From: Flavobacteriales bacterium
GTDB lineage: Bacteria; Bacteroidota; Bacteroidia; Flavobacteriales_F; PHOS-HE28
Assembly: GCA_019638115.1 (NCBI GenBank)
Contig: JAHBUK010000001.1
Location: forward strand, 124,001-188,000
Direction of reading: 5' to 3'
DNA length: 64,000 bases
Position numbers and translations under genes: made by a program. Position 1 is the first letter of the stretch. Every line of letters starts with the position of its first letter. Positions 31,064-40,455 of this stretch are shown here, piece after piece. The notes under the pieces are model-generated. The model was not told the DNA's origin, searched no databases, and worked only from the letters and a program-made list of their open reading frames with translations.

Positions 31064-32053
31064 TCAATAATCCCTCGTGATCGGCTGCAGCCAATAGCGA
31101 CCAGCATCGTAGGCACCACTTGCAATGCTCTCAGGATCCGCCAGGACAATGAACGGAGTGCGGTAGGAGAAAGGCCCCCGTGTAAAAGGATTAACCATAC
31201 TTCCACAGCGCTTCAATGCGAGTCTCACTTTCGGATCCCCGGACAAGAAGGTATGAACTGAACGAGTACTGCGCTGCCGGAACAAGTAACCTACAACTGC
31301 ATGAACACAAATGTCAATGTTCGCATCATCCAGACTATCCAACCAAAGAATGAAGGCCCGCCCATCCGCTTCTATTCTGTAAACACACATACCTATTCCA
31401 GCACCGTTGACCACTACCAGCAAGTGTTTGTAAGCGATCATTGGGTGCCCAAATGTCCGCCAAAGTAGAACCTCCTTATCGACCACCTTGGCAATCGGCC
31501 TGACTTGCGCCCTATGGATCATAAAATAAGCATCCAATAAAGGATCTGCAGCATCGACGGAACAGACCTCCACATCCACTTTCTCGCGAAGCGTATTGGA
31601 CACCCTGAAGGCCCAAGGATAGATGAAGATATAACTCATCTCAACCAAGCATTGCCAGCCCAATTTCTGAGTAAATCCATTAATTGATGTTGGACCCGGA
31701 TATCCGATCAAATGAAGCTTTCCAGTCGTTTCCTGAATATGTGCACAAGTCGCTCTTGCCAAGCGCGGAAAAAGACCCTTACCCCTATGCTCAGGATGGG
31801 TCATTGTGTCCATGGACTGATGAATAAAGGCTGGCTCCCCATCGACCGTGTATCGCTCTGGCAGAACGCCATAGAATGCGGCAATGCGTCCCTCCTTCCT
31901 TGCCACAAAAGAGATCACCGGACCAGCCGGTCCTTCCAAATACTTCCACCTGAAATAATCCTCGCCGACATCCCTACCAAAGCTACGGGCGTAGATTTCC
32001 CTCAACTCGCTGATGTCGCGGTAATCGTATTGCACTATTTCGTAGTCCGCCAT
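31064..32053 (-). CDS. GNAT family N-acyltransferase
   Basis: A 329-residue protein with an N-terminal GNAT acetyltransferase domain of the GNAT_9 type: YDYRDISELREIYARSFG, then the acetyl-CoA loop MTHPEHRGKGLFPRLAR near residue 90, and YPGPTSINGFTQKLGW. The C-terminal half is a second related or degenerate domain. Together with the deacetylase directly upstream it suggests de-N-acetylation and re-acylation of a glycan amino sugar; this is inference. Codon use is clearly AT-richer than the rest of the window. It is preceded by the deacetylase gene with a 3-bp gap, so both are one operon. Confidence 0.8.
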   Translation of the reverse strand: MADYEIVQYDYRDISELREIYARSFGRDVGEDYFRWKYLEGPAGPVISFVARKEGRIAAFYGVLPERYTVDGEPAFIHQSMDTMTHPEHRGKGLFPRLARATCAHIQETTGKLHLIGYPGPTSINGFTQKLGWQCLVEMSYIFIYPWAFRVSNTLREKVDVEVCSVDAADPLLDAYFMIHRAQVRPIAKVVDKEVLLWRTFGHPMIAYKHLLVVVNGAGIGMCVYRIEADGRAFILWLDSLDDANIDICVHAVVGYLFRQRSTRSVHTFLSGDPKVRLALKRCGSMVNPFTRGPFSYRTPFIVLADPESIASGAYDAGRYWLQPITRDY

Positions 32054-32056
32054 GGT

Positions 32057-33004
32057 TCACAGATCATGTTGACGCAGTAACGCCCGATTAAGATAGAACA
32101 GTAATCGCTGCGAAGAGTCGTTCACAAGACCAATTCTTGGGATCAGTCTCACCCCATTGACATCCGGAGCACCCACGAACAGATTGGGATTAGTGGTGTA
32201 CACATTACAATAATCACATTCACCCAGAATCCGCAAAGTATCACCATTGAAGTGCTCCTTCTTACCAAAAGGTAGAGCGAAATGCTTCGAGTAATCCCCT
32301 GTTAGAGCTTTTATCAAACTCTTCCCTTTCGCGACCTGATCAGAAGTGACCTCTGACGAAGAGCCCCCCAGGACATAGTGGTCCCAGCTATGATCACCTA
32401 TGGTCACTCCCTCCTTGACTAGTTGTTCCAATTCTCCATATGACATGAACATCCCCGGAGGTGGCCTAACGGAACGATAGGCGCATCGGAATGTTTCTGA
32501 GAACACGCCTTTCTCCATTATGGCGCCAATGACATCCTCCGCACTTTCCTGTGAAGGATCATCATCCACTCCCACCGCGGCACGCAAGGATGCCAAATAC
32601 TGCTGATCCTGTGCATGAGCCAGTAGATCAACCATCCAGTTGTGCCCTTCCTCGACCGCAGCACCATTGATGAAGACAGCATATGGTAGCCCCATGGACC
32701 GAAGAACAGGTCTGGCCACCTTGAAAACACTCATGAATCCATCATCGAAGGTGATGGCCAATTTGTTCCTTCCTTTCCCTTCACCATTCACAATTTCATC
32801 CAAAGACACAACCTCAAAAAGCCCCCGGATCAATTCCATGTGATGTCTGAAATTATCGAGGGCAGTGGTATAAACTGGCGAATCCAATGGACCTATTCCA
32901 TCGGATATATGATGATAACACAGGATCACTTTGCGTCCTTTGGACAAGCCGATCGGATACCGACCAGATAGCGCCCGCTTCAGTATTCCCTTTGCTCCAT
33001 ACAT
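32057..33004 (-). CDS. Polysaccharide deacetylase family protein
   Basis: A 315-residue NodB-homology carbohydrate esterase 4 protein. The first catalytic motif is LAITFDDGFMSVFK, with the paired aspartates, and the metal-binding histidines are in TIGDHSWDHYVL. KVILCYHHISDG near the N-terminus is typical of the single-domain CE4 proteins in capsule loci. There is no signal peptide, so it may act on cytoplasmic or lipid-linked sugars. It has the same low-GC character as the acyltransferase it precedes. Confidence 0.88.
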   Translation of the reverse strand: MYGAKGILKRALSGRYPIGLSKGRKVILCYHHISDGIGPLDSPVYTTALDNFRHHMELIRGLFEVVSLDEIVNGEGKGRNKLAITFDDGFMSVFKVARPVLRSMGLPYAVFINGAAVEEGHNWMVDLLAHAQDQQYLASLRAAVGVDDDPSQESAEDVIGAIMEKGVFSETFRCAYRSVRPPPGMFMSYGELEQLVKEGVTIGDHSWDHYVLGGSSSEVTSDQVAKGKSLIKALTGDYSKHFALPFGKKEHFNGDTLRILGECDYCNVYTTNPNLFVGAPDVNGVRLIPRIGLVNDSSQRLLFYLNRALLRQHDL

Positions 33005-33103: not shown

Positions 33104-36100
33104 ATGCGTGACCACATGACCTCGCTCTTGGTTTGCCTCTTAGGTCTTACCAGTTCATACGCGCAACCTTTCGATGACACCCGCCCACCCAACACTTTCC
33201 GCAACACGGACAACCCCGAATACTGGCGGAACCGGCCACCCTATCCGGGCTACTGGCAGCAGGATGTCCACTACCTCATCAAGGCCCGCGTGGACGATGA
33301 AGAGGACCTGATCCAGGGCGACCTAACCCTACACTACCACAACAATTCGCCCGATACGCTCCGGTACGTGTTCTTCCACTTGTACCAAGAGGCCTATGTG
33401 CCCGGCTCGTACATGCAGCGCCAAGCCTATGATCAGGGCTGGGATCCCCTGCGGAACGTGGGCGACAACTACGCCGGAACACGGATCAACACGCTCACCT
33501 GCGATGGCAACCCGCTACGCACCGAAAAGGACAACACCATCCTGAAGGTATGGCTGGAACGTCCCCTGGTGCCCGGGGAGCAGCTCACGTTCCGGATCGA
33601 CTTCACCACCCATTGGGCCAACGGACTGTGGCGGCGCATGAAGCTCTTCAACGCCTGGGGTAGCAAGCACTACGATGGTGTGCACTGGTACCCACGCATC
33701 GCTGTGTACGACCGCAAGTTCGGCTGGGACACCCAGCAACACCTGGGCAATGAGTTCTACGGTGACTTCGGCACCTTCGATGTGGAACTCGACTTCCCGC
33801 ACCATTACATCGTGGATGCCACCGGCGTGCTCCAGAACGAACAGGAGGTACTTCCCGCGGACCTCCGCGCTCGGCTCGACGTTGCGAACTTCAAGGACAA
33901 GCCCTGGAACGAGAAGCCCTCGGTGATCATCGCTCCGGAGCCCGGCAAGCGTAAGGTCTGGAAGTACCACAGCGAGAACACCCACGATTTCGCATTCACG
34001 GCCGACCCCACCTACCGCATTGGCGAGGCCACCTGGAACGGCGTGCGTTGCATCGCCCTCGCTCAGGAGCCGCATGCCAGCGGTTGGCAGAATGCAGCCG
34101 CTTACACCGCCAGCATCATCGAGGTGTTCAGCACCGACTTCGGCATGTACGCCTATCCCAAGATGATCGTGGCCGATGCCCGCGATGGCATGGAGTACCC
34201 CATGCTGACGCTGGACGGTGGTCGCGACCCCGACTACCGCGGATTGCTGGTGCACGAGGTGGGCCACAACTGGTTCTACGGCATGCTGGGCAGCAACGAG
34301 ACCTACCGCGCGTTCCTGGACGAGGGATTCACCCAATTCCTGACGGCGTGGGGTCTGGAGCGGATCGATGGTGATACGGTGGTGGTGGAGCCTTCGCGCA
34401 GCGCCTATGTGCAGCGCTACCGCCAAGCCCAACTGGCGCGCGAAAGCGAAGTGTACCAAGGATACATGCGGGACGCCGTGCGCAATGAACTGCCGCCGCT
34501 GAACGTGCACAGCGATGAGTTCGGGCATGTGGAAGGCTTGGGTGGTGGCTACGGCCATGTATACTACAAGACCGCTGTCATGCTCTACAACCTGCAGTAC
34601 GTGCTGGGCGACTCGCTCTTCCTCTCCGCCATGCGACATTATGTGGCGCAGTGGCGCATGTGCCACCCGTATCCGGAGGATATGCGGCAGAGCTTCATGG
34701 ACCACACGAAGGTGGACCTCAACTGGTTCTTCGACCAATGGTTGGAAACGGACAAACGCATCGACTACGCCGTGCGCGGCGTTACCCGCCGGAACAAGGA
34801 CAGCGCCCAGCGCATCACCTTGGTGCGCAAGGGCAGCATGCATATGCCGATCGACCTCCGCGTTACCGCCAAGGACGGCAGCCTGTACGACTTCCACATC
34901 CCGAACACTTGGTTCGAGAAGCGTACTGAGGCCACCGTGAAACCGCGCTGGATCGGCGGTGGTGACCTTCAGAAGCGCTACACTTTGTTCGTGGACGTGC
35001 CCAGCGGCATCGAGCAGGTGAGCATCGACCCCAGCGACCGGCTGGCGGACCACTACAAGCTGAACGACCACCTGAGCGTACCGGTGACCGTGAGCTTCGA
35101 CCACCACATCCGCAATGCGCCCGATCGCAAAGCCTACGAGGTGTTCGTACGGCCGGATCTCTGGTGGAACGGATACGATGGCGCCAAAGTGGGTGTGCAC
35201 CTGAACAGCGGTTACATGCGCCACAAGCACAAGGTGCACTTCAGCGCCTGGTTGAACAGCGGCCTCGGCCAACATCTTCCTCCCGACAATCCAGCATTGC
35301 AGGTGGACTCCATTCCGGGCAACACGGATACCGGTTTCGACCCCATCTCCTTCAACTTCCGCTACGAGAACGGCACCGAGAAGCTGCTGAAAGGTTCGGC
35401 CATGTTCGTGCACGCCCGCATGCTGGACGGCCTGCAACGCTACGGCGCCGGCTGGAAGTGGTTGCTGCCCAACGGACGCACCGAAGCACAGGCGGAGTTG
35501 CTCTACTTCATCCGCCAGGACAGTGCCTCGCTCACTTACCTGCTCTATCCGGAGCAATGGGAGCTGGACCGCTGGAACGGCGCACTTGACCTCTCACTGC
35601 GCCACCGCTACGACCATGCGCGCGGCGATGGCGACCTGAAATTGGAGCTGCGGAACGGTGCCGTGGGTGCTGCAGCAGGCTATGCCCAGGTGCGCCTCAC
35701 CGCCGTGAACGTGAACGAGCTTGGCCCCCTGCAACTGCGCACACGCGGCTTCGGTCAGTTCGGTACGGGCGCTACACCGCGCGAGAGTGCCCTTTACCTC
35801 GCAGGCGCTTCGCCCGAGGAGATGATGGAGAACAAGTACGTGCGCAGCATCGGTTTCGTGCCTTACGATTGGTTGGGCTATGGCGCTGACGTGAACCACT
35901 TCCACCACGGCGGTGGCTTGGGCCTCCGCGGCTATGCCGGCTACCTGGCACCCGAGGAACTGGAGAACGGCGAACTGGTGTTCACCCACTTCGGGAACAC
36001 GGGTCTTGCCGCCAGCGGTGAACTGGACCTGGATGGCCTGGTGAACTGGCGCCCCGGGAAACTGGCCCGATACCTGCACCTGGACGTGTACCTCTTCGGG

Positions 36101-36340
36101 GATGTGGGCATGATGGGATACAGGACCACCAACGCTGATGGAACGCAACTGCGCATGGCACAACCACGTGCGGATGCTGGCGCCGGGCTGGCCTTCACCG
36201 TGAAACGCTTCGGCCCGCTCAGCGACATCAAACCCTTCACCATCCGCTTCGACATGCCCTTGCTACTTTCAGCCCTGCCCGCCAGCGAAACCGAGCACTT
36301 CGGGTTCCGCTATGTGGTGGGCATCGGCCGTAGCTTCTGA
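33104..36340 (+). CDS. M1 family metallopeptidase fused to a predicted outer-membrane barrel
   Basis: A 1078-residue exported protein. A signal peptide (MRDHMTSLLVCLLGLTSSYAQ) is followed by the M1 N-terminal beta domain (roughly residues 25-290). The gluzincin domain carries the zinc site HEVGHNW at residues 384-390 and the third ligand Glu407 in NETYRAFLDEG, matching HExxH-x18-E. From about residue 650 to the end the sequence changes to alternating aromatic beta strands with a GLGLRGY motif (residues 939-944) and a final phenylalanine (YVVGIGRSF), resembling an Omp85/D15-type barrel. M1 enzymes without such a tail are about 600-900 residues. The role is probably an aminopeptidase tethered to the outer membrane. 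It lies 5 bp before the DUF2147 gene, likely co-transcribed. The start was chosen for the signal peptide; an ATG at 33116 is possible. Confidence 0.88.
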   Translation: MRDHMTSLLVCLLGLTSSYAQPFDDTRPPNTFRNTDNPEYWRNRPPYPGYWQQDVHYLIKARVDDEEDLIQGDLTLHYHNNSPDTLRYVFFHLYQEAYVPGSYMQRQAYDQGWDPLRNVGDNYAGTRINTLTCDGNPLRTEKDNTILKVWLERPLVPGEQLTFRIDFTTHWANGLWRRMKLFNAWGSKHYDGVHWYPRIAVYDRKFGWDTQQHLGNEFYGDFGTFDVELDFPHHYIVDATGVLQNEQEVLPADLRARLDVANFKDKPWNEKPSVIIAPEPGKRKVWKYHSENTHDFAFTADPTYRIGEATWNGVRCIALAQEPHASGWQNAAAYTASIIEVFSTDFGMYAYPKMIVADARDGMEYPMLTLDGGRDPDYRGLLVHEVGHNWFYGMLGSNETYRAFLDEGFTQFLTAWGLERIDGDTVVVEPSRSAYVQRYRQAQLARESEVYQGYMRDAVRNELPPLNVHSDEFGHVEGLGGGYGHVYYKTAVMLYNLQYVLGDSLFLSAMRHYVAQWRMCHPYPEDMRQSFMDHTKVDLNWFFDQWLETDKRIDYAVRGVTRRNKDSAQRITLVRKGSMHMPIDLRVTAKDGSLYDFHIPNTWFEKRTEATVKPRWIGGGDLQKRYTLFVDVPSGIEQVSIDPSDRLADHYKLNDHLSVPVTVSFDHHIRNAPDRKAYEVFVRPDLWWNGYDGAKVGVHLNSGYMRHKHKVHFSAWLNSGLGQHLPPDNPALQVDSIPGNTDTGFDPISFNFRYENGTEKLLKGSAMFVHARMLDGLQRYGAGWKWLLPNGRTEAQAELLYFIRQDSASLTYLLYPEQWELDRWNGALDLSLRHRYDHARGDGDLKLELRNGAVGAAAGYAQVRLTAVNVNELGPLQLRTRGFGQFGTGATPRESALYLAGASPEEMMENKYVRSIGFVPYDWLGYGADVNHFHHGGGLGLRGYAGYLAPEELENGELVFTHFGNTGLAASGELDLDGLVNWRPGKLARYLHLDVYLFGDVGMMGYRTTNADGTQLRMAQPRADAGAGLAFTVKRFGPLSDIKPFTIRFDMPLLLSALPASETEHFGFRYVVGIGRSF

Positions 36341-36345
36341 TCCAT

Positions 36346-36771
36346 ATGACCATGCGCAACCTCTTCACCCTTGCCCTGCTCCTGCTGATCGGCATCAGCG
36401 CCCATGCCCAATCCGTTACCGGCCGATGGACGACCATTGACGATAACACGGGCAAGCCACGATCCGTGGTGGAACTCACCGAAAAGAACGGCAAGCTCAG
36501 CGGCAGGATCGTGGAACTCTACGAGGTGGAGAAGCGCGACAAGCTCTGCGACAAATGCCCAGGCGACCGCCACAACCAGCGCGTGGTGGGGCTGGAGATC
36601 GTGCGGGACATGGTGAAGAGCGGTAAGGAATGGACCAAGGGCACCATCCTGGACCCTGAGACCGGCAAGGTGTACGATTGCAAGATCTGGCTGGAAGGTG
36701 GCGAACTGAAAGTGCGTGGCTATGTCGCGTTCTTCTTCAGGACACAGACCTGGGTGAAGGAGAGCAAATAG
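36346..36771 (+). CDS. DUF2147 secreted protein
   Basis: A 141-residue exported protein with a signal peptide (MRNLFTLALLLLIGISAHAQ) and a small beta-barrel DUF2147 domain: VTGRWTTIDDNTGKPRSVVEL, KLCDKCPGDRHNQRVVGLEI with two cysteines, and ILDPETGKVYDCKIWLEGG. Function is unknown, though the family is widespread in Bacteroidota and Proteobacteria. It is 5 bp downstream of the M1 peptidase-barrel gene. The ATG at 36352 is an alternative start. The convergent adhesin-like gene ends 2 bp away. Confidence 0.88.
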   Translation: MTMRNLFTLALLLLIGISAHAQSVTGRWTTIDDNTGKPRSVVELTEKNGKLSGRIVELYEVEKRDKLCDKCPGDRHNQRVVGLEIVRDMVKSGKEWTKGTILDPETGKVYDCKIWLEGGELKVRGYVAFFFRTQTWVKESK

Positions 36772-36773
36772 GA

Positions 36774-39700
36774 TCAGCGCAGCACCGTTACGTGCCCCAC
36801 CTTGGTGGTGGTGCCACGGCCGCCGCAGGAAGCGCGATGGCTGAGCACGTATACGTAGGTGCCATCCGGAACATCGCGGCCATTGTATCGACCATCCCAG
36901 CCCATGAGCGGATCGGTGCTGCTGTGCAAGAGCTCGCCCCAGCGGTTGTAGATCTCCAATAGGAAGCCGTCACTATCGGCACCCACCACCAGGAAGCGGT
37001 CGTTCACACCATCGCCTTGCGGGGTGAACACGTTGGGCACATAGCTGACCCCATCGGCACCGGGATCGGAGAAGACCAGCAAGGCTCCTGCGTGAGGACA
37101 GCCCAAGAGATCCACTGCGGTGTAGGTGTATTCGCCCTCGGGCAATGCGATATCCGCACTGCTGGAACCCGTGTTCCACAGGATGGCACCGAACACATCA
37201 GACCATTCGATGCTTGCGGTCTCACCAGGGCACACCAGCATGTCCTCCGGTACTTGCAGTGCAGAGGCGTAGGTGATCCGCACTGTATCCGAAACACTGC
37301 CGCACGCGTTGCTCATGTTAGCCCAATAGGTGCCGCTCTCCACCACTACTAGGAAGGCACCTTGGGAACCATCCTGCCAAACGATGGGGTCATTGCTGTT
37401 GGAAGATGCTTGCACGATGAACGCATCCGCAGTACACAGTACCGTGTCGCCGGGCAACGAGAGCATGGGCATGAAGGCCAGGCCGATGGTGATACTCGCT
37501 TGTGAAGTGCAGCCATCCACCACCACTTCCACGGAATAGACGCCCGGACCGGTGGCCTGGTAAGTGCTTGCCATGGTCCCGTCCTGCCAGGTGGAGGCCG
37601 ACGCGGGATGGCCTGAAACGAGCAACAGATCGACCACTTCGCATACGACCGTATCGGGGCCCAAGGAGACCAGCGGCAATGGGACCACTTCCACATCCAC
37701 GCTGTCAACACCCAAGCATCCCACTGCTCCCACTTGCACCCAATAGGTACCCGAGATCACCGGTGTATAGGTCTCTTCGGAAGAGCCATCCTGCCAAGTG
37801 TGCGGCAGACCGACCAAGCCTGTGCCCAGCGTCACTGCATCACCAGCGCAAAATGTCAGATCAGGGCCCAGGTCAACGATCGGTGGGTCGATGAAGGTGA
37901 CGGAGATGGTGTCGCTTGCGATGCAGCCTTGGTCGTCAAGTGTTACCCAATAAAGCCCTGTTGAACTCACCACGAATTGCGCGTCCGTGCTACCATCCTG
38001 CCACTCTATCGAGCCGGAGGTCGATCCAAGATCCAACAAAAGCGTGGAGCCCGAACAGAGTACAGTGTCCGCACCCAACTCGACCTCGGGAATTGCCACA
38101 ACCAACACCTCTACACTGTCCGTGGCTGAACATCCCACTGCTCCCACTTGCACCCAATAGGTACCCGACAACACCGGTGTATAAGTCTCTTCGGAAGAGC
38201 CATCCTGCCAGGTGTGGGGAAGACCGACCAAGCCTGTTCCCAGCGTCACTGCATCACCCGCGCAAAATGTCAGACCAGGGCCCAGGTCAACGACCGGTGG
38301 GTCGATGAAGGTGACGGAGATGGTGTCGCTTGCTGTGCAGCCTTGGTCGTCAAGTGTTACCCAGTAAAGCCCTGTTGAACTCACCACGAATTGAGCGTCC
38401 ATGATACCATCCTGCCACTCTATCAAGCCGGTGGTTGCTCCTATGTCCAACAAAAGCGTGGAGCCCGAACAGAGTACAGTGTCCGCACCCAACTCGACCT
38501 CGGGAGTTGCCAGAACCATGACCTCCACACTGTCCGTGGCTGTACATCCCACTGCTCCCACTTGCACCCAATAGGTACCCGATAACACCGGTGCGTAGGT
38601 CTCTTCGGAAGAGCCGTCCTGCCAGGTGTGCGGCAGACCGACCAAGCCTGTGCCCAACGTCACTGCATCACCAGCGCAAAACGTCAGATCAGGCCCCAGG
38701 TCAACGACCGGTGGGTCGATGAAGGTGACGGAGATGGTGTCGCTTGCGGTGCAGCCTTGGTCGTCGATCTGGACCCAATAAGTTCCTGTGTTGACAACCT
38801 CCAAGACCCCGTAGGTCGACCCATCCTGCCAAACGATGGAATCGAAAGAACCATCGATCTCCAGCAACAAAATGCCCCCCTGACATAGGGTCGTATCAGG
38901 CCCCAAAAGCACATTCACACCACCAACGACCACGGAAGCTGTACCAAACCCGCAGGATGTTGCGACCTCTACGGAATATGTTCCTGGCCCGCTCACTTCG
39001 TACATCGTTGTACTTGACCCATCCTGCCAGAGCACACTGGTGGCACATGGAACATCCACATTCAACAGGAACGGATAGTTCGGGCATGTGATGACTGGTG
39101 GCCCCAATTGAATGTCGATATCCTCCACCGGAATAGCAGCAGGCTCTCCCCCATGCGCAATGTTGGGAAGCCCTATGTCCGATGATGTTCCTGGGAGCAA
39201 GGCCAAACCCGCAACTTGATGATCGCACCCCACTCCAAGTACATCAGGTTGTGCGATCACATCGACGAATGATTGGGTCTGTCGAGCGAGGTAGATACGA
39301 CCGTCCGGACCAAGCTGCAGCATTCCGTACACATAGTTCCCGGGCATTGAACTCAACAGCAACGCTGACATTGACACCAGATCCACCTGGTACAGGCGAC
39401 TTGTCCCCCAGAAGGTGGACAGGTAAAGAAGAGCATCGTTTGGAGAGAACTGTATGCCATAAATGCCACCTGGTAGTCCCAATGCGGATACCATATTCAC
39501 CGGATCGCTGACCACACCTGTTGCTCGATCGAAGTTGAACATCTCACATAGATTGCAGAATGAGTTGGCCACCACGATCCTGTTCCCGTCCATCGACGAG
39601 CGCATTGGGCCGATCTCACATCCATTCCCATGAACGCTCCCTACCGTGGACGTAACAGGAACAGGGGAAAGTCCAGAAGCCGATAGGTGCCAAGCCAGGA

Positions 39701-40253
39701 ACGACGCACTACCACGTCCATGGCCAACCACCCAATAGTCGGTACCGTTGGAATGCCGGATCGCGGTAAGTTTCTCGGTCATGTTCCCATTTAGAAGAAT
39801 GCTTTGCTGCCCAGACACAACATCTCCCAAACCTCCGTCCAAACACATGTCCACCACTGAATACCTTAATGGCCCCGGGGCGAAGTGATCCGATGTGACA
39901 AAAACATAGTACGTACCACAAGTGCCGGGCATCTTCACGGCCAAAGCCGCCTGTGTGGAAGATGCTCCTCCCCCCAATCCTACCCCATTCGGCATAGGGT
40001 CGTTCAAGCGGTTCCAAATGGTCTCTCCGTTCGTATAGAACAGGATGTTGCCGGCCATGTCGGAAATGCATGCTGTTCCCTCCAAGGCAACAAGCGGACT
40101 GGATACGGCCACCGGTGCCGCTCCGGAAAAGTCGATGCCAGCATTATGCCCGAAATACCAGACATCATTGATCTGTGCTTGTGCACCGATGCTGAACAGC
40201 ATCGCAACAAGTACAATGAGCACTGATCGACCTGTGTATGTACAGATGCGCAT
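36774..40253 (-). CDS. Large T9SS type B (CHU_C) surface protein with Ig-like repeats
   Basis: A 1159-residue exported protein. The start at 40253 gives the signal peptide MRICTYTGRSVLIVLVAMLFSIGAQAQ. The N-terminal about 400 residues form a propeller-like region found in Bacteroidota surface proteins (INDVWYFGHNAGIDFSG onwards). Then come about nine Ig-like repeats of about 70 residues, each with a W-Q-D-G-S core and a cysteine near L-C-x-G. The C-terminal 85 residues are the CHU_C domain for type IX export: VPNVFTPQGDGVNDRF, EIYNRWGELLHSS, WDGRYNGRDVPDGTYVYVL. The probable role is surface adhesion or gliding. The repeats at 37720-38770 are almost identical at DNA level. The first third of the gene is closer to 50 percent GC than the rest. 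Confidence 0.9.
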   Translation of the reverse strand: MRICTYTGRSVLIVLVAMLFSIGAQAQINDVWYFGHNAGIDFSGAAPVAVSSPLVALEGTACISDMAGNILFYTNGETIWNRLNDPMPNGVGLGGGASSTQAALAVKMPGTCGTYYVFVTSDHFAPGPLRYSVVDMCLDGGLGDVVSGQQSILLNGNMTEKLTAIRHSNGTDYWVVGHGRGSASFLAWHLSASGLSPVPVTSTVGSVHGNGCEIGPMRSSMDGNRIVVANSFCNLCEMFNFDRATGVVSDPVNMVSALGLPGGIYGIQFSPNDALLYLSTFWGTSRLYQVDLVSMSALLLSSMPGNYVYGMLQLGPDGRIYLARQTQSFVDVIAQPDVLGVGCDHQVAGLALLPGTSSDIGLPNIAHGGEPAAIPVEDIDIQLGPPVITCPNYPFLLNVDVPCATSVLWQDGSSTTMYEVSGPGTYSVEVATSCGFGTASVVVGGVNVLLGPDTTLCQGGILLLEIDGSFDSIVWQDGSTYGVLEVVNTGTYWVQIDDQGCTASDTISVTFIDPPVVDLGPDLTFCAGDAVTLGTGLVGLPHTWQDGSSEETYAPVLSGTYWVQVGAVGCTATDSVEVMVLATPEVELGADTVLCSGSTLLLDIGATTGLIEWQDGIMDAQFVVSSTGLYWVTLDDQGCTASDTISVTFIDPPVVDLGPGLTFCAGDAVTLGTGLVGLPHTWQDGSSEETYTPVLSGTYWVQVGAVGCSATDSVEVLVVAIPEVELGADTVLCSGSTLLLDLGSTSGSIEWQDGSTDAQFVVSSTGLYWVTLDDQGCIASDTISVTFIDPPIVDLGPDLTFCAGDAVTLGTGLVGLPHTWQDGSSEETYTPVISGTYWVQVGAVGCLGVDSVDVEVVPLPLVSLGPDTVVCEVVDLLLVSGHPASASTWQDGTMASTYQATGPGVYSVEVVVDGCTSQASITIGLAFMPMLSLPGDTVLCTADAFIVQASSNSNDPIVWQDGSQGAFLVVVESGTYWANMSNACGSVSDTVRITYASALQVPEDMLVCPGETASIEWSDVFGAILWNTGSSSADIALPEGEYTYTAVDLLGCPHAGALLVFSDPGADGVSYVPNVFTPQGDGVNDRFLVVGADSDGFLLEIYNRWGELLHSSTDPLMGWDGRYNGRDVPDGTYVYVLSHRASCGGRGTTTKVGHVTVLR
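37720..38770 (-). repeat. 414-bp tandem DNA repeats inside the CHU_C protein gene
   Basis: Copies begin at 37720, 38134 and 38548 with a period of exactly 414 bp (138 codons); the third is cut off near 38770. Large stretches are identical between copies, including the block containing CCCACTGCTCCCACTTGCAC. Each unit encodes two Ig-like repeats, so loss or gain of units keeps the frame. Confidence 0.85.
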
Positions 40254-40455
40254 TTCTTCCTCAGGTCGACCCTTCGTGGTTAAAACTACCCAGTTCCCCT
40301 GAATATGGGTCGACATCATCCATTCAATTTCAGTTCTCAAGGTGCAACTTGAACTTTGTACTTCGAAGCGCCGACAATGGCCCGCCCCATCCACCCACTG
40401 ATATCATGATCTCTGACTTTGGCGATCCGCGCAGATATCTTGCGCTCCGAAGCTG

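Follow-up and report, generated by a model that had tools for sequence, protein, structure and literature searches.

A gene at 33104-36340 (plus strand) of the window, by which we mean the whole 64,000-nucleotide stretch of Flavobacteriales DNA analysed here, raises the question of what the long beta-rich tail of an M1 metallopeptidase is and where it would hold the enzyme. The original prediction for this locus was a surface or periplasmic protease fused to its own Omp85-like outer-membrane barrel. The frame is open throughout, from an ATG at 33104 to a stop at 36340, and encodes 1078 residues, in which the ORF, Pfam and structural models together delimit a signal peptide, an M1 aminopeptidase, a beta-sandwich and an Omp85-type barrel.

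Domain layout and the M1 peptidase half

The protein starts with a type-I-like signal peptide (residues 1-20, 33104-33163), assigned from the sequence and the N-termini of homologues; at its predicted cleavage site, between SSYA and Q, the sequence has no lipobox cysteine. The N-terminal beta domain of the M1 part follows (approximately residues 53-324, 33260-34075), as judged from the secondary structure of the model and from M1 structural matches beginning at residue 51-53. The catalytic helical domain (approximately residues 325-550, 34076-34753) is identified by Pfam PF01433 at 381-546 and by matches to M1 structures in the PDB. In the full-length model, which has a pLDDT of 88.0, the M1 domains are followed by an all-beta sandwich at residues 555-660 or thereabouts (34766-35083), located between enzyme and barrel. 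This sandwich sits at the canonical position of an Omp85 POTRA domain, but in the full-length model it is all-strand and not POTRA-like, and no POTRA domain was found in the protein. The barrel itself covers residues 664-1078 (35093-36337), with its first strand near residue 679.

A Pfam search with the whole protein returned only Peptidase_M1 (PF01433), at E=1.4e-12 and above the Pfam cut-off, leaving the last 400 residues without a match; a sequence search against the PDB gave no useful match. The M1 part superimposes on solved aminopeptidases with Z scores of 26-28.5 and an rmsd of about 3 Å, the top match being tricorn factor F3 (Z 28.5, rmsd 2.8 Å, 462 residues). The zinc site anticipated in the original prediction is complete: the zinc-binding and catalytic motif HEVGHNW (residues 384-390, 34253-34273) contributes H384, E385 and H388, and E407 (34322-34324), the third zinc ligand, completes HExxH-X18-E. 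These residues are invariant in all 71 sequences of an alignment of homologues that share about 46-73% identity. So is the segment G362-M363-E364-Y365 (34187-34198), the counterpart of the exopeptidase motif GxMEN of M1 enzymes, in which the glutamate is kept in 71/71 and the last residue is Tyr in place of the textbook Asn. Y487 (34562-34564), also invariant in 71/71, is presumably the catalytic tyrosine of a V-x-Y-x-K motif, an assignment made by comparison with LTA4H, and K489 is equally conserved. Because the zinc site, the G-M-E-Y segment, Y487 and K489 do not vary among the 71 relatives, the enzyme is probably active across the whole family.

The tail as an Omp85-type barrel

The C-terminal 415 residues were modeled with AlphaFold2 from the 71 homologous tails, giving a mean pLDDT of 88.1 and a pTM of 0.83. 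The beta-strand tail that had been foreseen was modeled as a barrel, and no soluble beta-sandwich appears in its place. Reading the DSSP output, we count 16 strands, 11 ahead of a 77-residue loop and 5 behind it. This loop, L6 (residues 890-966, 35771-36001), is the longest and connects strands 11 and 12. The top 50 PDB matches of the barrel in Foldseek were exclusively BamA/BAM, TamA and Sam50/SAM entries, and the top 50 in VIA-align 2 were likewise all Omp85 proteins. The best VIA-align 2 match was Sam50 (Z 20.3, 4.2 Å, 302 residues), followed by BamA of E. coli and Deinococcus (Z 20.1), Flavobacterium johnsoniae (19.0) and Porphyromonas gingivalis (18.6). Pairwise sequence identity with BamA in these structure matches is just 11-15%.

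Two motifs are the most conserved in Omp85 proteins (Maier et al., 2015, PMC4490367): the tip of L6 carries (V/I)RG(Y/F), strand 13 carries (F/G)xDxG, and a salt bridge between Arg and Asp connects them. Both have counterparts here. GGLGLRGY (residues 937-944, 35912-35935) lies in L6 and corresponds to the lid-lock motif (V/I/L)RG(Y/F), with R942 conserved in 71/71 homologues, G943 in 70/71 and Y or F at 944 in 71/71. The original prediction had recognized this motif, but placed GLGLRGY at 939-944, one residue short of its actual span of 938-944 (LRGY 941-944). The same LRGY occurs in BamA of F. johnsoniae (PMC12611786). On strand 13, FGDVG (998-1002, 36095-36109) conforms to the FxDxG motif as defined in PMC4490367, with F998, D1000 and G1002 invariant in 71/71. 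From the motif positions, a lid-lock contact in space between R942 and D1000 is predicted. The last strand (36305-36337) ends in Phe1078, the outer-membrane beta-signal, and a terminal Phe is kept in 70/71 homologues. As the key residues are invariant across the 71 homologues, the motifs of the M1 half and of the barrel are not due to chance.

Kinship at the level of sequence profiles, a check proposed together with the original prediction, was seen with our own profiles but not with Pfam: the Omp85 model PF01103 matched none of the 71 homologues at E ≤ 1. We therefore pooled three barrel families (the window family, and the stand-alone barrels and second M1 lineage described below) into a superprofile and compared it with TamA/TamL-type Omp85 proteins from Bacteroidota, a set of five rows carrying a GG-N--RG(F/W) motif. 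The hhalign E-value, which is pairwise and carries no database-search correction, was 1.4e-7 over 235 columns; on the same scale, a BamA profile scored 5.9e-7 against this set and a FadL-type barrel control 0.07. In the pooled alignment, F-x-D-x-G of strand 13 and the regions of strands 14/15 are aligned; the RGY loop is not aligned residue by residue. Both the grouping into subfamilies and the pooling mattered: with an uncurated alignment of mixed Omp85 proteins the match was weak and local, and the direct profile match of the window family alone to BamA alone was not significant. Together, the fold matches, both lid-lock motifs and the profile match support the assignment of the tail as an Omp85-type barrel.

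Distribution, a second lineage and stand-alone barrels

Other long M1 proteins with the same tail, which the original prediction had suggested looking for, are numerous. A scan of GTDB genomes gave at least 579 coding matches; the full architecture is present in all of the best 80 of these at least 579, three of which stop early, at contig ends. Nearly all of 39 close genomes contain a full-length copy. Among the carriers is a cultured strain, Taibaiella soli R1-15 (locus L055). The expectation that such a tether would be uncommon thus does not hold for the Bacteroidota, in which the architecture is widespread. Two irregular copies were seen. In one genome, a 72-aa frame about 430 bases 3' of the full gene (G004:C1:1568481-1568591) covers the last strands once more, with 81% identity to residues 1042-1078, as a partial duplication. 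In another, a 614-aa frame (G026:C11:25102-26406) matches residues 630-1078 only and has no matching M1 part; it reflects fission, a frameshift or an assembly error.

When 395 genomes of the phylum were searched with a profile, 64 gave matches. Most of these were stand-alone barrels, about 400-460 aa long and belonging to one family (f40); frames of about 1000-1150 aa were found as well. The stand-alone barrels (around 420 aa) have their own signal peptide. They are homologous to the tail (loci L121-L149, e.g., L121:1486-2760; about 400-460 aa) and carry RG(Y/F) in 29/29 cases, and one locus (L140:1495-4150) holds two in tandem. Split halves with an adjoining M1 gene were considered and rejected, as no M1 gene lies within the loci of about 4 kb examined. 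None of the neighbour genes of the window was found in the 11-kb regions around stand-alone barrels.

A second, divergent lineage of M1-barrel proteins includes a paralogue in the same genome, outside the window (G000:C1:254931-257957; loci L083 and L157). Its better-conserved branch matches the window barrel with an hhalign E of 1.8e-26. The branch bearing the paralogue is much more distant, at 0.008 when compared directly with the window family and 2.9e-9 with the stand-alone barrels. RG(Y/F) is largely lost in this lineage, being present in 4/24 tails. A tree built from M1 domains recovers the window family as one group (support 100/100); in it, most barrel-less M1 proteins of 620 aa nest among barrel-bearing branches of the second lineage, with the reservation that the root is arbitrary and some branches are long. 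This nesting fits loss of the barrel, which would explain the M1 tree at least as well as the alternative of an ancestral 620-aa M1 protein to which barrels were added repeatedly. The nested 620-aa proteins (rows L082, L178, L182, L183 and L187-L192) are widespread in Bacteroidota.

Gene neighbourhood

Among 58 loci with sufficient upstream sequence, the gene lies 3' of nadC in 22, usually accompanied by rlmH and a BrkB/YihY gene and sometimes by DUF4783. This recurring nadC/BrkB-type context suggests old vertical inheritance. In the window, GNAT and polysaccharide deacetylase genes (31064-33004, minus strand) are inserted between the BrkB/YihY gene and the fusion; in the other 80 loci the deacetylase insertion occurs in none and GNAT in one. 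A DUF2147 gene (36346-36771, plus strand) starts 5 bases after the stop of the fusion gene and is probably co-transcribed with it. A similar ORF lies directly downstream on the same strand in the 9 closest relatives whose contigs reach that far (L001-L009). Further downstream (36774-40394) is a gene for a 1206-aa T9SS (CHU_C) protein that contains three copies of a 300-nt repeat at 414-nt spacing (37648-38775), 83-86% identical.

Location of the enzyme and role of the barrel

With the N-terminus assumed to be periplasmic, the outer loops of the barrel model total 165 residues (3, 29, 2, 21, 7, 77, 11 and 15) and the inner turns 45. Outer loops longer than inner turns are the usual asymmetry of outer-membrane barrels. 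Because the number of strands is even, and because of this loop asymmetry with LRGY between strands 11 and 12, both barrel ends would face the periplasm, and therefore so would the M1 domain unless it is translocated. By default we thus regard the enzyme as periplasmic, on the basis of strand number, loop lengths and the analogy with PlpD, the patatin-Omp85 (type Vd) protein of Pseudomonas aeruginosa, and not of the domain placement in the model. The best reading, to which we assign a probability of about 0.6, is a self-anchoring periplasmic zinc aminopeptidase of the outer membrane.

According to this reading, the protein would be exported by Sec, and BAM would fold the barrel into the outer membrane using the barrel's own C-terminal Phe beta-signal. 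Strand 1 would hold the M1 enzyme and the beta-sandwich in the periplasm, as the even strand number, the loop asymmetry and PlpD suggest. There, on the inner side of the outer membrane, the enzyme may trim peptides. Such peptides could arrive via TonB/SusCD-type importers or be leftovers of envelope proteases. Anchoring would be the main task of the barrel, which the L6 lid lock would keep shut.

An unlikely alternative is a factor for envelope quality control or biogenesis, in which the barrel still has Omp85 activity, with a lateral gate, and hands outer-membrane or exported proteins that are stalled or misfolded over to the peptidase. The lid lock and the strand-13/14 motifs are conserved far beyond the needs of a plain anchor, and the nadC/BrkB-type context in 22/58 loci, suggestive of old vertical inheritance, would suit such a role. 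However, M1 enzymes are exopeptidases that require free N-termini, the protein has no POTRA domain for client binding, and BAM/TAM genes are absent among the neighbours. Loss of RGY from most second-lineage barrels, including those in the same genome, further indicates that barrel function may be dispensable. Rather unlikely as well is that the barrel has a functional lateral gate or pore coupled with the built-in aminopeptidase, making the protein a one-chain proteolytic machine of the outer membrane; if so, the barrel would pass peptides or stalled termini of outer-membrane proteins directly to the active site.

That the M1 domain is passed through the barrel to the cell surface for digestion of external peptides, as in the original type Vd proposal, is improbable. 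PlpD was first interpreted in this way (PMC4104836), translocases such as FhaC do exist among Omp85 barrels, and Bacteroidota degrade external protein. The enzyme domain of PlpD was later shown to be periplasmic, though (PMC11116518), and the strand-13 motif of our protein is FxDxG, not the GxDxG of FhaC translocases; FxDxG is the insertase form found in BamA/TamA and is associated with tight closure of the barrel (PMC4490367). Translocation would also require some 600 residues to pass as a folded domain, and neither a cleavage site nor a T9SS domain is seen in the protein. Of the two locations left open by the original prediction, topology and PlpD thus favor the periplasmic one over the surface.

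It is very unlikely that the tail is some other 16-stranded outer-membrane barrel with a convergent RGY likeness, as the missing Pfam Omp85 match and the 11-15% identity with BamA might suggest, since the tail agrees with Omp85 in its number of strands, the position of L6 and the two signature motifs, since both programs list nothing but Omp85 among their top 50 structure matches, and since the profile match was calibrated against FadL. We also rejected the idea that the protein is one of the BAM subunits BamG/H/M/P of Bacteroidota, none of which is a peptidase.

Comparison with known systems

No description of this architecture, here called M1-Omp85, was found among open-access papers, although some sign of it may already exist in database annotations. 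It has stayed hidden because the Pfam Omp85 model misses the barrel and databases register an M1 peptidase only. Judged from the open-access literature, M1-Omp85 is a previously undescribed enzyme-Omp85 architecture; enzyme-Omp85 fusions as such are known. A survey of the superfamily distinguished ten subfamilies, with patatin and 'Metallo' (PF00149) fusions included (Heinz and Lithgow, 2014, PMC4104836); its main text leaves M1 unmentioned and has no occurrence of 'peptidase'. The 'Metallo' subfamily resembles M1-Omp85 in placing a metal-dependent hydrolase on an Omp85 barrel, but PF00149 is a calcineurin-like metallophosphoesterase (called a metalloprotease in the paper), unrelated to PF01433, and the Pfam search of our protein found PF01433 only and no PF00149. 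The survey's 'noNterm' proteins are like the stand-alone relatives of the M1-Omp85 barrel in consisting of barrel and signal peptide only; the window protein shares with them the absence of POTRA but bears an M1 enzyme.

With BamA, TamA, TamL and Sam50, M1-Omp85 has in common the 16 strands, RG(Y/F) in L6 and FxDxG on strand 13; it differs in having an enzyme and no POTRA, and is distant in sequence. It shares the N-terminal beta domain, the catalytic domain and the zinc and exopeptidase motifs with M1 aminopeptidases such as tricorn factor F3, IRAP, ERAP1, LTA4H and the two-domain M1 enzyme of Deinococcus. Larger M1 enzymes also have a C-terminal helical domain, which M1-Omp85 lacks; it has the outer-membrane barrel at that position.

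Omp85 proteins are viewed as insertases and translocases. M1-Omp85, carried by hundreds of Bacteroidota genomes, makes it testable whether enzyme-bearing barrels are mere tethers or still act on polypeptides, and is relevant to peptide processing at the outer membrane of these major degraders of protein and polysaccharide. The closest parallel is PlpD, which likewise has a signal peptide, an enzyme at the N-terminus and a 16-strand Omp85 barrel at the C-terminus. PlpD is a dimer, and its enzyme domain lies in the periplasm (PMC11116518). M1-Omp85 differs from it in its Bacteroidota host and in carrying a zinc aminopeptidase instead of the patatin phospholipase; PlpD's patatin domain and single POTRA are both absent. 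PlpD showed that the Omp85 scaffold has also been reused for carrying a periplasmic enzyme, and with M1-Omp85 this scaffold would bear a second, independent enzyme.
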